Shown here piece by piece: positions 1-5,635 of a stretch of DNA of 64,000 nucleotides. Position 1 is the stretch's first letter. The number at the start of each line of letters is the position of its first letter. Under the pieces are notes generated by a model. The model searched no databases. It was not told the origin of the DNA and saw only the letters and a program-made list of their open reading frames with translations. The DNA is taken from the NCBI RefSeq assembly GCF_028689295.1, contig NZ_JAQTWL010000003.1, forward strand, positions 60,569 through 124,568. Reading direction: 5' to 3'. The stretch comes from Rhodoferax sp. GTDB lineage: Bacteria > Pseudomonadota > Gammaproteobacteria > Burkholderiales > Burkholderiaceae_C. Position numbers and translations under genes: made by a program.

Positions 1-488
1 TCAACAGTGCCACCAACTGCGCCAGTTGCCACGTCGTTGGCGGCTCGGCGCCGGGCAAGGACGCCAACCATATTCCGACCACGGCCAACTGCAGCACCTG
101 CCACAAGAGCTACAGCAGCTGGACGCCGGCGAGCTTCCACGCCAACGTCTCGGTGCTGACGGGCTGCGCGACTTGCCATGCCACGGGCACCTTCGGTTTG
201 ACCGTCAAGCCCAACAACACGACCCATGCGGGCGTCACGGTGTGTGAAACCTGCCACAAATCGACGGGCAGCTGGTCGGGCGCCAAGGTCGATCACAGTG
301 TCTTCAACAGTGCCACCAACTGCGCCAGTTGCCACGTCGTTGGCGGCTCGGCGCCGGGCAAGGACGCCAACCATATTCCGACCACGGCCAACTGCAGCAC
401 CTGCCACAAGAGCTACAGCAGCTGGACGCCAGCCAAATTCCACGCCAACGTCTCGGTGCTGACGGGCTGCGCGACTTGCCATGCCACG
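1..488 (+). repeat. 303-bp direct repeat inside the cytochrome gene
   Basis: Bases 1-185 recur at 304-488 with four differences, all clustered near 128-134 and 431-437. The period of 303 bases is 101 codons, so the frame is kept. The shared part covers three CXXCH motifs; the fourth motif of each module (CETCH) lies in more diverged sequence. The left edge of the first copy is outside the window, so more copies may exist. Confidence 0.9.
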
Positions 489-1136
489 ACAGCCTATGGC
501 TTGACTGCCAAACCTAACACGCCAACGCACAGCGGTGTAACCGTGTGCGAAACCTGCCACAAGTCCACCAGCAGCTGGTCGAATGTCCAGTTTGCGCACT
601 CGCCTGCCAATGGAGTCGGCACCGGAACCTGTGATACCTGTCATAACGGCACAGCCGCCCTGGGCAAACCAAATTCGCATATTCCGGTCAACTCCAGTAT
701 CTCCAAGTGCGATTCTTGCCACAAATCGCAGGCCAGTTTCAGTACTTCCGTGACCATGAACCACACAGTGGTCAGCACAGTCACCTGCAAGTCGTGCCAC
801 AACGGCACTTACGTGTCGCAAGGCAACAACGGCGGCGCGCTGGCCAAGCCCGCCAACCATATTCCGGAGGCACAATTGCTGAACGGCGCTGCGATGGATT
901 GCAAATCATGCCATAGCAGTACCGCCTCCTGGAGTACCGAAAAAATGAATCACAACGCCAGCATGGGCAACGGCGCTGGTTGGTGCAAGTCCTGTCATGC
1001 AAGTGGCACCAGTTACCTTGGAGACATGGAGAAAAAATCGCTGACCCATGAGAAATCCGGCCAGACTGATTGCTCTACATCCAGTTGTCACAAGCCGTTA
1101 GGTAGCAAAGGTATCACCTACATCGAATGGGACTGA
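3..1136 (+). CDS. Multihaem c-type cytochrome, 5' end outside window
   Basis: The reading frame is open from the first bases, so the start and signal peptide lie upstream; 377 residues are visible. They contain 13 CXXCH haem motifs (CASCH, CSTCH, CATCH, CETCH, CDTCH, CDSCH, CKSCH types) and one final CX4CH motif (CSTSSCH). There is no other recognisable domain; spacers are rich in Ser, Thr, Ala and Asn with scattered His that could be distal ligands. Four haem motifs recur with a 101-residue period, and the DNA of that module is nearly identical between copies. Such proteins are exported, haem-loaded by the Ccm system and conduct electrons in the periplasm or across the outer membrane. The next gene, 60 bases on, encodes an outer membrane barrel, which suggests a shared conduit. 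Electron donor and acceptor cannot be read from sequence. Confidence 0.93.
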   Translation, partial: NSATNCASCHVVGGSAPGKDANHIPTTANCSTCHKSYSSWTPASFHANVSVLTGCATCHATGTFGLTVKPNNTTHAGVTVCETCHKSTGSWSGAKVDHSVFNSATNCASCHVVGGSAPGKDANHIPTTANCSTCHKSYSSWTPAKFHANVSVLTGCATCHATTAYGLTAKPNTPTHSGVTVCETCHKSTSSWSNVQFAHSPANGVGTGTCDTCHNGTAALGKPNSHIPVNSSISKCDSCHKSQASFSTSVTMNHTVVSTVTCKSCHNGTYVSQGNNGGALAKPANHIPEAQLLNGAAMDCKSCHSSTASWSTEKMNHNASMGNGAGWCKSCHASGTSYLGDMEKKSLTHEKSGQTDCSTSSCHKPLGSKGITYIEWD

Positions 1137-1196
1137 CCCCGCTGGCACTTACGATTCATGAGCACACACTAATTTATTGACCAACCACCACAAAAA

Positions 1197-3416
1197 ATGA
1201 TGAAAAATAATTATCTTTTGCTACCTGTTGCCGCCTGTCTGTGCGCCGGCTTTGTTTCCACTGCAAGCGCGCAATATCTGGAAGATGTCGAGTTCCGGCA
1301 AGAGGGCGCCAACGCGGTGCTGAACATTAAATTGGTGACGCCGGTCCAGTATTCCAGGTCAGTTGCGGCGCGTGCTTCGGATGTGGTGCAGGTGTTTTAT
1401 TCTGTTCTGCCAACCCGCAATCCAATCGCCAATATCAGCAGTGAGCGTCGGCTGGTCGGTGCAGAGAGTATTCCGTCGGTCATCATTTCAGACGAGGATG
1501 CGGACAATACCGCGCAGCTTAAATCGAGTCGGAAACTGGTGATACGTTTTGCCAGCCCCATCAAGTTCCGGGTGCGGGCTGGTCGCAATAACAGCAGCAT
1601 TGAGGTGGTGCTGGATGGCTTGGGGTCGTCGGTCAAGGCAGCGACTGCTGCAGCTACTACCTTGCGCGCCCGCCTTGCCAAAGCGCCTGAAAGTGCGCCA
1701 GTGGCGGCCGACAGAGCTGGTGCGCTGGCACCGGCCGAGGTCGAGGCTTCGGCTGCGGCGCTGCTGGGCACCGCGCAATCGGCGTTTGATGGGGGCAATT
1801 ACGCCGTGGCGATCGAGTCGCTAAACCAGCTCCTTAACCTGCCAACCAATGCATCATCGCGCCGGGCGCAAGAGCTGATCGGCTTGTCGCGTTTGAATAT
1901 GGGTGACAGCGCCCGGGCTGCCAGTGAATTTGATCTGTTCCTCAAACTCTATCCCGTCGGCAGTGATAGCGATCGCGTGCGCCAGTTGGCGGCGGCAGCG
2001 CCGACGATTGCCAAGTCGCCAACCCAGGACAAAAAGGTGGTGGAAGCGCACGCCAGCACCAGCGGCTCGGTGTCGATGTTTTACTATGGCGGCAAATCCG
2101 ATATCCGTACCCAGGAGTTCAAGGACTCGGTGTTGGGCGGGCTGCCCATTCTGGTCTCTGATTCCACACTGTCGGCTGACGACCAAAAACAATTGCAGAC
2201 AAACGTGGACTTGAACTGGCGTTATCGGGATGTCGACAAGGAAATGCGTTTTGTTTTTCGTGATGCCTTCGCCGCAGACTACATCAGGGACAGAAGTAGA
2301 AATCGTTTATCTGCGTTGTATTTTGACTACCGTTCATTGCTCAACGGGACCAGCATTCGCCTGGGCCGCCAGTCGCCCAATGGTGGTGGTGTGCTCTACC
2401 GTTTTGACGGTATCCAGGCCGGCTACGTCTTCAAGCCCAAGTGGAAAGTGAACGCCGTGATCGGTGTCCCCTCAGATACCTTGCTGGATACGCGTCGCAC
2501 CTTTTACGGCATGTCGGTGGATGCAGAAGCCCTGACCAAAGAACTCAGCGGCAGCACCTTTTTAATCCAGCAAATGATCGACGGCGAGGTCGATCGTCGC
2601 GGTATCGGGGCTGATCTGCGCTATTTCAAGGACGGTATTTCGGCGTCGGCGCAGCTTGACTATGACACGATCATCAATGGCCTCAATATCGCCTCGGTTC
2701 AGGGTACCTGGCAGGTAACTGAAGCGACTGTGATCAATGCGATGGCTGACCGCCGGACCACACCTATTCTGTCATTGGGCAATGTGTTGTTTTTCCAGAA
2801 TCCTGCCTTGTCAGTTCCAGCGCAGCGGATCAAGGATTTGCTCGGCACTGCCTCCATTGAGACCTTGCGCGAGCAAGTCAAGGGGCTCACGCCGTATCAG
2901 ATGCAGATGCACATCGGTGGCACAACGTCCTTGACGAAGAATTGGCAGGTCGGGGCCGACCTTGGAGTCGCCAGTGTGGAAGAGATCAAGCCAGTGGCTG
3001 ATCTGTTACCGAATGGCCAGGCCAGTACCGGCAATCTGTGGAATGCGGGTGTCCAGTTGATCGGTTCCAATTTGTACTCTTTGCGTGACACGCACGTGTT
3101 CAACCTTTCTTTGCTGGGTGGTCCAACTTACCACGGCACACTGCTTTCTTACAACAATCTCTCCAGTCTGGGTGAAAAGTGGCAACTTGAGCCCTCGCTG
3201 AAGTATTACACCCAAAGCAGCAACGAAGGTTCAAGCAACAATGTCTGGACCGCCGGCGCGCGCGCCGCCTACCGGGTTCGTCAGACAGTGTCGCTCGAAA
3301 CCGAATTGACCTACGAGCACGCCAATGCCAACAGCGCGCCGACCATGATTGGTCCTGGCGCCACGACCACGTCGTCACGGATGAATTACTACCTGGGCTT
3401 CCGGTACGACTTTTGA
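1197..3416 (+). CDS. Outer membrane beta-barrel protein with AMIN-like and TPR regions
   Basis: The 739-residue product starts with a clear Sec signal peptide, with likely cleavage after ASA at residue 25. Residues about 30-145 resemble an AMIN-like beta domain, often used for cell-wall or envelope anchoring. Residues about 180-270 look like a TPR pair. From about 285 to the end the chain alternates polar and hydrophobic residues like a transmembrane barrel and ends in aromatic YDF, the usual outer membrane C-terminal signal. It lies 60 bases after the multihaem cytochrome and just before a CcmI-like gene. By analogy with MtrB/PioB-type porins it could sheath a cytochrome across the outer membrane, but I see no sequence identity to those families and the N-terminal domains differ. 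No CXXCH is present. Confidence 0.75.
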   Translation: MMKNNYLLLPVAACLCAGFVSTASAQYLEDVEFRQEGANAVLNIKLVTPVQYSRSVAARASDVVQVFYSVLPTRNPIANISSERRLVGAESIPSVIISDEDADNTAQLKSSRKLVIRFASPIKFRVRAGRNNSSIEVVLDGLGSSVKAATAAATTLRARLAKAPESAPVAADRAGALAPAEVEASAAALLGTAQSAFDGGNYAVAIESLNQLLNLPTNASSRRAQELIGLSRLNMGDSARAASEFDLFLKLYPVGSDSDRVRQLAAAAPTIAKSPTQDKKVVEAHASTSGSVSMFYYGGKSDIRTQEFKDSVLGGLPILVSDSTLSADDQKQLQTNVDLNWRYRDVDKEMRFVFRDAFAADYIRDRSRNRLSALYFDYRSLLNGTSIRLGRQSPNGGGVLYRFDGIQAGYVFKPKWKVNAVIGVPSDTLLDTRRTFYGMSVDAEALTKELSGSTFLIQQMIDGEVDRRGIGADLRYFKDGISASAQLDYDTIINGLNIASVQGTWQVTEATVINAMADRRTTPILSLGNVLFFQNPALSVPAQRIKDLLGTASIETLREQVKGLTPYQMQMHIGGTTSLTKNWQVGADLGVASVEEIKPVADLLPNGQASTGNLWNAGVQLIGSNLYSLRDTHVFNLSLLGGPTYHGTLLSYNNLSSLGEKWQLEPSLKYYTQSSNEGSSNNVWTAGARAAYRVRQTVSLETELTYEHANANSAPTMIGPGATTTSSRMNYYLGFRYDF

Positions 3417-3419
3417 TCA

Positions 3420-4295
3420 ATGCATATGCCTCATCCTTCTGTTTCAAACACCGCTACCCTAATGGCTTCGCCTGATCCCAAATCGATCCTCCCGGCACGC
3501 CGTGTGCTGCCGTTGCTGGTGGCCGCGGCGGTCTTGGTGTGCGTAATAGCCTATGGCTGGACGCGTTACTCCGCCCAGCCAGCGTCCCCGGCTTCTTTCA
3601 GCCCAATCATGGTGCGTAGCATGCCAATAGCGGGTGCCGCGCCAGCGGCCAATCCGCACGCCGCCGACATCGACCAGATCGCCGCCATGACCGACAAGCT
3701 TGCAGCCAAGCTGAAAGAGCAGCCGAAAGACTCCGAGGGCTGGGCCATGCTGGCACGCACCTATGGTGTCCTGAAGCGTTTCCCGGAGGCAGTGATTGCC
3801 TATGAAAAAGCCATTGCTTTACGTGGTGATGACAATGTTTTGCGCTCCGATTACGCGCAGGCCCGCGCGCAGGCGGGGCTCCCCCCCGACAGCCGTGGTG
3901 TTGTCGTGGCGCAAGCTGTTGTCAAGCCGCAGATGGCGGCATCGACCGGGCAGACTGTGAGCGGCACTGTGGTACTGGCACCCGCGCTCATGAAGCAGGT
4001 CAATCCGGAAGACGTCGTATTTGTCTTTGCGCGTCCCTCCGAAGGATCACGCATGCCGCTGGCCCTGCTGCGCAGGCAGGTGAAAGACTTGCCCATTGTG
4101 TTTACGCTGGACGACAGCATGGCCATGTCGCCAGCATCGACCTTGTCCAAGGCGGGTCTCGTGGTGATTGGCGCGCGCATCAGCAAAAGCGGTCACGCGA
4201 TGCCTGAAAAAGGCGATTTGACCGGCCTGTCGGCTCCAGTGGCCGTGGGGGCAAAGGGCATGAAGATCGAAATCAATGAGGTTCTGATGCAGTAA
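3420..4295 (+). CDS. CcmI/CycH-like TPR protein, cytochrome c biogenesis type
   Basis: The 291-residue product has one membrane segment at about residues 28-46 (VLPLLVAAAVLVCVIAYGW). A TPR region follows at about 85-150, then a C-terminal domain at about 185-290 with the pattern known from CcmI/CycH (FVFARPSEGSRMPLA, FTLDDSMAMSP, GARISKSGHAMP). CcmI chaperones apocytochromes to the haem ligation complex. No other ccm gene is nearby; the gene sits three bases after the barrel gene and is followed at once by the flavoprotein gene. It may therefore be a chaperone dedicated to the adjacent multihaem protein. The start is uncertain: ATG at 3420, 3426 or 3462 are all possible and none has a strong ribosome binding site. 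Confidence 0.8.
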   Translation: MHMPHPSVSNTATLMASPDPKSILPARRVLPLLVAAAVLVCVIAYGWTRYSAQPASPASFSPIMVRSMPIAGAAPAANPHAADIDQIAAMTDKLAAKLKEQPKDSEGWAMLARTYGVLKRFPEAVIAYEKAIALRGDDNVLRSDYAQARAQAGLPPDSRGVVVAQAVVKPQMAASTGQTVSGTVVLAPALMKQVNPEDVVFVFARPSEGSRMPLALLRRQVKDLPIVFTLDDSMAMSPASTLSKAGLVVIGARISKSGHAMPEKGDLTGLSAPVAVGAKGMKIEINEVLMQ

Positions 4296-4297
4296 GC

Positions 4298-5635
4298 TTG
4301 AAGCCATTGCGGCGATTTTGCCGGACTGTCATATCAAGTTGCGTGAATTATCTTTATCTATACCTCGTCCCCTTGCTCCTCGTGCTGGCGCTTTACCTCA
4401 GGCGCCAGCGGCGCATTCATGGCGCACAGGCAGCCCAGTTGCACGAGTCCATTGCCAGCGGTTTGAGCGAACCTTCTTCACTGCATCCGGTGGTGGATCC
4501 ATCGCGATGCATGGGATCAGGTGCCTGCGCCAAAGCCTGCCCCGAGAAGGCGCTGGGCGTTGTCAATGGTCAGATGGCGTTGATCAACGCAGCCCACTGC
4601 ATCGGCCACGGCGCCTGCCTGGCGGCCTGTCCGGTGGATGCCATCAAGCTGGTCTTTGGCACAGAGAAACGCGGTGTTGATATTCCCAACATCAGCCCGG
4701 ATTTCGAGACCAATGTGCCCGGCATTTATATCGCGGGTGAACTCGGCGGCATGGGCCTGATCCGCAAAGCGGCAGAACAGGGTCGCCAGGCCATTGAGTC
4801 GATCCGTAAGAGCAAGTCCACAGGCATCGCCGATTTCGATGTGATTATTGTCGGCTGCGGACCCGCTGGCATCTCGGCCGGCCTGTCTGCGCTGGAGCAC
4901 AAGCTGCGCTACAAGATCCTTGAGCAAGAGGATTCCCTGGGGGGTTCGGTTTACCACTACCCGCGGCAAAAAATCACCATGACAGCGCCGGTGGAATTGG
5001 CGCTGGTGGGTAAAACCAAATTCAACGAAGTTCGAAAAGAAACACTGCTGGCGTTCTGGCTGGACGTGGTCAACACAACGGGCTTGCAAATCGATTTCTG
5101 CGAGCGTATGGAGTCGATCGACAAAGTGGGCGACGTCTTCGTGGTTCATACCGCCAAAGGCAGCCATACCACCCGAACCGTCTTGCTGTCGATGGGTCGC
5201 CGTGGCACGCCGCGCAAACTTGATGTGCCGGGCGAGGATTTGCCCAAAGTAATGTACAGGCTTGCGGATGCGGCACAGTTCAAGGGGCAGGCGGTGCTGG
5301 TGGTGGGCGGCGGCGACAGCGCCCTCGAAGCGGCGATCTCGTTATCAGAGCAAGCCGACACCGATGTCATTCTTTCTTACCGCAGTGGTGCATTTTCCCG
5401 TGTCAAGCAAAAAAACCGGGAGATGCTCGCGCAGCAGCAACTAACCGGGCGCTTGCGGGTCATGCTGAACTCCAGGGTGAAGCAGATTTCAGAAAAGGCG
5501 GTGGAGATCGAAATGGAAGGCCAGTCGCAGCAGCACCGCAACGATGCCGTCATCGTCTGCGCCGGTGGTTTGCTGCCCACCCCGCTGTTGCAGAAAATTG
5601 GCATTCGTTTTGACACCAAGTTTGGAAGCGCCTGA
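4298..5635 (+). CDS. Membrane-anchored ferredoxin / thioredoxin-reductase-like flavoprotein
   Basis: The 445-residue product has an N-terminal membrane helix at about residues 18-34. Two ferredoxin-like motifs follow at C71-C81 and C101-C111. Each lacks the usual second cysteine, replaced by Ser74 in the first and His104 in the second. Residues about 128-170 ([13 protein letters not shown]) resemble the stretch that normally closes the FAD domain at the C-terminus of pyridine-nucleotide oxidoreductases. A FAD Rossmann motif (GCGPAG, 186-191) and an NAD(P) motif (GGGDS, 337-341) come after it, and the chain ends without a second closing segment. There is no CXXC redox disulfide. It probably passes electrons between NAD(P)H or ferredoxin and the membrane or periplasmic cytochromes encoded upstream; direction is unknown. 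The start is TTG at 4298; GTG at 4343 is an alternative. Confidence 0.82.

Follow-up and report, generated by a model that had tools for sequence, protein, structure and literature searches.

A circularly permuted flavoprotein as an apparent partner of the predicted electron conduit PCC3

We studied the left end of a 64,000-nucleotide stretch of DNA from Rhodoferax sp. (NCBI RefSeq assembly GCF_028689295.1, contig NZ_JAQTWL010000003.1, positions 60,569 to 124,568 of the forward strand; this whole stretch is called the window below). It carries the downstream part of a gene set which, judged by its sequence, is almost certainly a member of PCC3, a published and so far predicted conduit of a porin, multihaem cytochromes and an inner-membrane protein (IMP). 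The set also holds a gene for a membrane-anchored flavoprotein, which we consider very likely to be a working part of PCC3: the two are found in nearly the same genomes in three genome draws, and mostly close to each other. As an explanation of the whole, we lean with slightly better than even confidence towards PCC3 with a flavoprotein partner and an NADPH-fed outward route of electrons.

The PCC3 gene set at the left end of the window

A preliminary description of the window had proposed four adjacent same-strand genes as a candidate outer-membrane electron conduit that had not been described before. All four are confirmed in the window by its list of open reading frames (ORFs), and they turn out to be the downstream part of a same-strand set of six. 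The window begins directly after a 100-N assembly gap (L003:5470-5569; the window coordinate is the L003 position minus 5569). This gap breaks the gene of the extracellular-type cytochrome, which starts at L003:4530 and has 11 CXXCH motifs before the gap and 13 in the window. The upstream extension that had been suggested as a check thus yielded the start of this cytochrome and, on the same strand, a 24-CXXCH cytochrome and an IMP. The six genes are, in order:

L003:1620-2591 (window about -3949 to -2978), + strand: IMP, 323 aa, recognised by hydropathy and motifs
L003:2608-4533 (window about -2961 to -1036), + strand: periplasmic-type cytochrome, 24 CXXCH by motif count, 641 aa, 27 aa per haem
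1..1136 (ORF 3-1136), + strand: multihaem c-type cytochrome of the extracellular type with near-identical repeats, open at the window's left end; Pfam cytochrome c7/c3 matches, paired CXXCH
1197..3416, + strand: putative outer-membrane barrel (PCC3 porin), 739 aa, with an N-terminal part, a TPR region and a C-terminal barrel-like part; domain matches, strand alternation, PCC3 neighbours
3420..4295, + strand: CcmI/CycH-like cytochrome c maturation protein (TPR and Ig_CycH by Pfam)
4343..5635, + strand: membrane-anchored Fe-S/FAD/NAD(P) flavoprotein with a circularly permuted fold of the thioredoxin reductase type, 430 aa; Fer4 motifs, Pyr_redox_3 at E 4.9e-41

The ORF of the flavoprotein opens at TTG 4298 (4298-5635), and GTG 4343 is the likelier start because homologues (for example L031 and L032) begin with MNY at the residue aligned with it. 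We considered whether the 24-haem cytochrome ends in a frameshift and rejected this, as many homologues likewise stop soon after the last CXXCH. A scan for promoters and terminators gave nothing above shuffled sequences.

PCC3 was defined by He et al. (2017, PMC5566968) as a porin, extracellular and periplasmic multihaem cytochromes with repeats, and an IMP of about 300 aa with five transmembrane helices, SGXXG in the fourth and WX3HX13H in the third and fifth. In the Gallionellaceae the periplasmic cytochromes have 21, 24 or 27 CXXCH motifs (PMC10734462). Many bacteria of fresh water and sediments carry PCC3 (PMC5566968, PMC10734462). Later papers treat it as a predicted complex (PMC10734462, PMC12442390, PMC8788666, PMC12016527, PMC13386937) and, where they enumerate its parts, name the porin, the two cytochromes and the IMP; it is reported as functionally unverified (PMC12442390).

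The Rhodoferax locus has each of these parts. The gene of the porin, a barrel by its sequence, adjoins the multihaem cytochrome genes; the periplasmic-type cytochrome has 24 CXXCH motifs, one of the published numbers; the extracellular-type cytochrome has many CXXCH motifs, lying on both sides of the gap, and repeated blocks. The IMP has five hydrophobic segments, with WX3HX13H in segments 3 and 5 and SGXXG in segment 4. The motif residues are invariant across nine aligned homologues, eight of which have five hydrophobic segments and one of which has six. Compared with Pfam, the window's IMP reached no family cut-off, and its profile had no match at E 1 among the PDB sequences. The piece that crosses the inner membrane is probably this protein, which is encoded outside the window. 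Since both cytochromes, the porin and the IMP fit the published sequence definition, the conduit itself is not new. In other words, the locus is a candidate outer-membrane conduit as proposed, and its description as a new system has to be given up once the upstream genes are added.

The porin had been described as a barrel protein with a signal peptide, an AMIN-like region and a TPR region. Its N-terminus looks like a signal peptide by eye, and both the TPR region and the barrel are recognisable; the AMIN-like region is not supported, as a Pfam comparison of 21 porins at E 0.01 gave no AMIN family. Three features point to a barrel: the C-terminal residue is F or Y in 17 of the 21 homologues, the strand-like alternation covers 133 positions of the window's protein (mean 67 and maximum 124 in 200 shuffles), and there are weak matches to barrel families (LamB in three of the 21, Alginate_exp in one). 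The homologues adjoin PCC3 genes in other genomes. In three of the 21 porins we also see a match to the SPOR domain; judged by the alignment, it seems to follow the N-terminal part and precede the TPR region.

One could argue that the barrel serves to secrete polysaccharide or protein and that the neighbouring cytochromes are coincidental. The weak LamB and Alginate_exp matches would fit this, and TPR domains occur in secretion porins too. On the other hand, the barrel gene sits with large multihaem cytochromes and the diagnostic IMP, as in the published PCC3 (PMC5566968), and no porin family is over its Pfam cut-off in the window's protein. We regard a secretion porin as extremely unlikely.

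Co-occurrence of the flavoprotein and PCC3

The preliminary description had made its proposal depend on the gene families occurring together outside this genome. They do so in three overlapping genome draws, at the level of family (200 genomes), class (321) and phylum (398), with the window's own genome included in the counts, and also in a set of named loci. In the family draw, the porin is found in 14 genomes and the flavoprotein in the same 14 and in G019, a genome of 290 contigs (Fisher p = 1e-20). In the class draw, the IMP and the flavoprotein are found in 38 genomes each, of which 37 are common to both (p = 3e-46); G389 has the IMP only and G376 the flavoprotein only. In the phylum draw, both are found in the identical six genomes (p = 2e-13). 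The dedicated flavoprotein that had been proposed is thus near one-to-one with PCC3 in all three draws.

Several matches were left out before counting: a porin match in G097 (E 1.1e-4, query residues 147-258) for the family; weak IMP matches in G310 and G365 for the class; and, for the phylum, weak IMP matches in G538, G846, G848 and G890 and partial flavoprotein matches in G337, G518, G631 and G716. Flavoprotein matches were listed at E <= 1e-60 (family), E <= 1e-100 (class) and 1e-50 (phylum), and the phylum search has a gap in E between 6e-184 and 5e-64. There is also a partial flavoprotein match with one TGA at G233:C1:2217463-2218326, in a genome of one contig.

The two genes also go together in number and position. 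Five genomes of the class draw have two flavoproteins, and these also carry two IMPs. Of the 43 flavoprotein genes of the class draw, 33 diverge from an IMP on the same contig (at a distance of up to 1.8 kb in 31 cases), two share its strand and two converge with it; for the other six, there is no IMP match on the same contig. The named loci were chosen by the flavoprotein alone, as the best 80 of 561 relatives, and were surveyed for IMP, porin, cytochrome and CcmI at thresholds which we set ourselves. An IMP is present in 53 of them (divergent from the flavoprotein in 42, on the same strand in 11), an ORF with at least seven CXXCH motifs in 54 and a porin in 42. Altogether, 69 of the 80 loci hold a PCC3 core gene, that is the IMP in 53 and a porin match in the other 16; in each of the 11 without one, the sequence stops no more than 6.3 kb upstream of the flavoprotein. 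A mirror-tree comparison over 52 loci gave r = 0.82, which was reached by none of 999 permutations; we do not use it as proof, because species relatedness alone can produce such a result. A recurrent NapC/CymA gene in the named loci was considered and rejected: the cluster in question, from 19 loci, is by eye mostly ccmB, and a NapC-type signature is present in three of the 80 loci.

Some observations speak against a strict partnership. Because of the overlap between the draws and the relatedness of the genomes, the Fisher p-values are not those of independent trials. In the window's own locus, 7.3 kb separate the flavoprotein from the IMP. Among 13 family neighbourhoods, the flavoprotein is present in 11; in G173 it adjoins a second IMP and cytochrome, and in G199 a different contig carries it, the 16 kb examined there giving no PCC3 match. 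The partnership of flavoprotein and PCC3 is well supported by co-occurrence and synteny.

The pairing extends to another phylum. At E 1e-60, a single plasmid record matches the flavoprotein; it belongs to Emticicia oligotrophica (Bacteroidota; 45.5% identity) and holds a PCC3-like cluster:

L133 (NC_018749.1, plasmid pEMTOL02) 9941-21739, all on one strand: ccsA, IMP, flavoprotein, a 23-CXXCH and a 40-CXXCH cytochrome, and a protein resembling an outer-membrane protein (by eye)

The Emticicia IMP scores 117 bits against the IMP profile and has the HX13H pairs and SGXXG. A search of plasmids with the window's IMP at E 1e-10 gave no match, although this divergent IMP is plasmid-borne. A record titled as a Nitrospinaceae metagenome-assembled genome (L121) likewise has the flavoprotein, the IMP and multihaem cytochromes; it is from another phylum by assignment, and a binning error is possible. 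The IMP and the flavoprotein are a marker pair that finds the PCC3 system even in another phylum.

As a component of PCC3 the flavoprotein appears to be new and is apparently unreported. Flavoprotein-type terms had no link to PCC3 in the main texts of PMC5566968, PMC13386937, PMC12442390, PMC12016527 and PMC10734462 or in a wider search, figures and supplements being outside the scope. The main text of PMC5566968 contains none of FAD, flavo, ferredoxin and CcmH (again with supplements and figures outside the scope, of which Fig. 6 may draw the gene unnamed). In PMC8788666, 'FAD-dependent' and CcmH alone were looked for and no link to PCC3 was found. The partner suggests that the four-gene model of PCC3 is incomplete, and a near-constant flavoprotein of the NAD(P)H type gives PCC3 a concrete, testable link to metabolism.

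Fold of the flavoprotein and direction of electron flow

The flavoprotein had been described as a membrane-anchored ferredoxin/FAD/NAD(P) protein, and its sequence agrees with this (Fer4 motifs, the Pyr_redox_3 match and a hydrophobic segment). The N-terminal hydrophobic segment is clear in 36 of 40 homologues. In 39 of the 40, the net charge after the segment is more positive than before it, and the body of the protein is therefore predicted to face the cytoplasm. Of the two ferredoxin-type motifs, the second Cys is usually absent: position 89 is His in all 40 homologues, where a Cys is usual, and position 59 varies (27 Ser, 8 Cys, 3 Ala, 2 Gly).

The FAD domain is circularly permuted, that is, its C-terminal part precedes its N-terminal part. 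If the two parts are swapped, the match to the thioredoxin reductase profile extends from positions 2-208 to positions 2-297 of 300, with a modest gain from 77.8 to 83.7 bits. The moved piece alone gives a weak thioredoxin reductase match (E 0.006). A distant relative with the usual order aligns to the flavoprotein as two blocks in swapped order (E 2e-38 and 5e-10). A literature search on the permuted fold found nothing relevant.

The closest known proteins are YpdA/Bdr and thioredoxin reductase, with which the FAD and NAD(P) domains align (YpdA 154 bits; PDB 7a7b at E 5.3e-41). The flavoprotein is a member of neither by our comparison. Its 154.1 bits are well below the NCBIfam cut-off of 339.9 for YpdA/Bdr, and the active-site Cys of the one and the CXXC of the other are missing: the window's protein has no CXXC, and the GGGPCG of Bdr, whose Cys we take to be the active-site Cys, aligns with GxGPAG in the flavoprotein family, Ala 175 being nearly invariant. 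The permutation and the added membrane anchor and Fer4 motifs are further differences. The arginines that follow the NAD(P) motif are invariant and resemble those of NADPH-specific reductases.

The gene upstream of the flavoprotein encodes a protein with both domains of CcmI/CycH over their cut-offs (Ig_CycH E 2.4e-33, 114.6 bits, cut-off 27; TPR_CcmH_CycH E 1.4e-11, 44.9 bits, cut-off 42). The preliminary description had seen in it a dedicated Ccm chaperone. The identity holds, and there are CcmI-like tblastn matches in all 13 family neighbourhoods (in L034, L035 and L036 to the N-terminal and TPR part only); it is not a constant companion, since a CcmI match is present in 32 of the 80 named loci. 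In G130, a run of Ccm genes lies between the porin and the flavoprotein, and G155 and G042 are similar by their ORFs only. The window's genome has a separate Ccm operon on contig C22 (CcmF by TIGR00353, the rest by eye); the CcmI of this operon has the TPR domain match and no Ig_CycH match at E 1e-5. Given the Ccm runs near PCC3 and this separate operon, the window's CcmI probably represents what is left of a cytochrome maturation module, or a specialised version of one, and such a module often accompanies PCC3. The protein may help to load haem onto the PCC3 cytochromes. The region of the operon (G000:C22, L135 1395-16486; L052 14282-15759) also has multihaem cytochrome ORFs with 9, 8 and 6 CXXCH motifs, and near the operon there is a gene that by eye is NapC/CymA-like.

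This neighbourhood raises the question of whether the flavoprotein is a maturation factor rather than a respiratory protein, one that supplies reductant for haem attachment to the PCC3 cytochromes together with CcmI/Ccm or CcsA. Its gene comes straight after CcmI in the window and after the Ccm run in G130, the Emticicia cluster begins with CcsA, and the fold resembles thioredoxin reductase. However, the missing CXXC and the Ala in place of the Bdr Cys argue against such a role, as does the presence of a PCC3 core gene in more than twice as many named loci as CcmI, and the divergent orientation from the IMP of most flavoprotein genes of the class draw. We consider a maturation factor improbable.

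For the PCC3 conduit with its flavoprotein partner we infer cofactors, topology, electron donor, contact with the IMP and direction as follows. NADPH would reduce the FAD of the flavoprotein, and the electrons would pass through its two Fe-S clusters of the ferredoxin type and reach a pair of b-haems in the five-helix IMP. Through the IMP they would cross the inner membrane to the 24-haem periplasmic cytochrome, and at the porin they would cross the outer membrane to the extracellular cytochrome and an outside acceptor (metal oxide, humic substance, partner cell or electrode). Both donors at the redox level of NAD(P)H and the membrane potential favour outward flow, and we hold a net outward flow to be somewhat probable. 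NADPH as the donor is suggested by the conserved arginines and the similarity to Bdr and thioredoxin reductase. Our literature searches found no experiment on the function of PCC3.

The published model also runs the other way: PCC3 is found in Fe(II) oxidisers, and He et al. proposed an inward route, from Fe(II) or a solid donor through PCC3 and its IMP to the quinone pool (PMC5566968). The flavoprotein might then draw electrons from the IMP or quinol for the reduction of NAD(P)+, at an energetic cost, or adjust how reduced the IMP is. For PCC3 copy 2 of Sideroxydans CL21, the IMP is raised in cells that can oxidise iron (PMC12442390), and there are Gallionella records among the 80 flavoprotein loci. 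On the other hand, S. lithotrophicus ES-1 lowers both of its PCC3 clusters on Fe(II) (PMC8788666). Among the hosts of the flavoprotein, several are not known as iron oxidisers (Emticicia, Rubrivivax, Methylotenera). The reduction of NAD(P)+ by periplasmic electrons would be uphill in redox terms and against the membrane potential. An inward conduit seems to us possible and rather unlikely.

If NADPH drives the system, electrons would reach the cell surface without passing through quinones. As a bolder and doubtful extension, PCC3 could be a split transmembrane NADPH oxidase with an outside acceptor. The permuted flavoprotein, one of whose Fe-S clusters would have a His ligand, would drive a membrane protein with two b-haems, and this would be joined to a wire of haems that spans the periplasm. 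Two phyla, Pseudomonadota and Bacteroidota, would then have NADPH-driven extracellular electron transfer without quinones, and flavin-based bifurcation might divide the electrons between the Fe-S clusters and the b-haems.

Elsewhere in the same genome (G000:C14, L134 5845-11830), there is a 7-CXXCH ORF followed by ORFs that by eye resemble Fe-S proteins and an aldehyde oxidoreductase.

Comparison with known systems

The published PCC3 and the Rhodoferax locus share the porin, the extracellular and periplasmic many-haem repeat cytochromes and the five-helix IMP of about 300 aa with two WX3HX13H and one SGXXG. The published complex has four components, whereas here the flavoprotein accompanies them almost constantly, and CcmI does so frequently.

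MtrCAB, MtoAB and PioAB are alike in their predicted working, with a cytochrome through an outer-membrane barrel; they differ in that the cytochromes are larger here and the inner-membrane part is another one. Membership in Mtr/Mto was rejected: for TIGR03508 (MtrA type, DmsE-family decahaem, cut-off 192.2 bits) the best score in the window's genome is 49.7 bits and that of the window cytochrome 68.5 bits, and no MtrB-type family is among the NCBIfam matches of the barrel at E 0.1.

Related clusters exist in which no porin was recognised in the stretches around them, and PMC5566968 mentions 'another redox protein' beside pairs of multihaem cytochrome and IMP. They contain a relative of about 815 aa and a 10-CXXCH cytochrome:

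L137 7977-13031: flavin/cNMP-binding/Fer4 protein of about 815 aa and 10-CXXCH cytochrome
L139 6941-13026: the same two
L138 2768-8029: the same two

In G518 and G631, the relative is encoded directly upstream of an HX13H membrane protein and the cytochrome, and its flavin/NAD(P) domain is related to that of our flavoprotein (32% identity in G518). It differs by the usual order of the flavin domain, two cNMP-binding matches and a C-terminal Fer4. In G716, a relative of this type and a 10-CXXCH cytochrome are near each other; in G337, there is no 10-CXXCH-type cytochrome in the 18 kb around the relative. The clusters of L137 and L139 contain an HX13H membrane protein, that of L139 also a CcmI-type TPR gene, and L137 has an FHA-like N-terminus by a Yop-YscD_cpl match. 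The pairing in these clusters supports an exchange of electrons between such flavoproteins and such membrane proteins.

With NADPH oxidase and ferric reductase the IMP shares two HX13H pairs, a comparison with ferric reductase already made by He et al. (PMC5566968), and a flavin/NAD(P) protein on the cytoplasmic side is proposed here as well. Unlike in those enzymes, the flavoprotein is a separate protein of the thioredoxin reductase type, and for an IMP with no Pfam match over cut-off and no PDB sequence match at E 1 it is the histidine pattern alone that is in common. Taken together, the IMP and the flavoprotein would be like a split NADPH oxidase or ferric reductase with its electron sink outside the cell.

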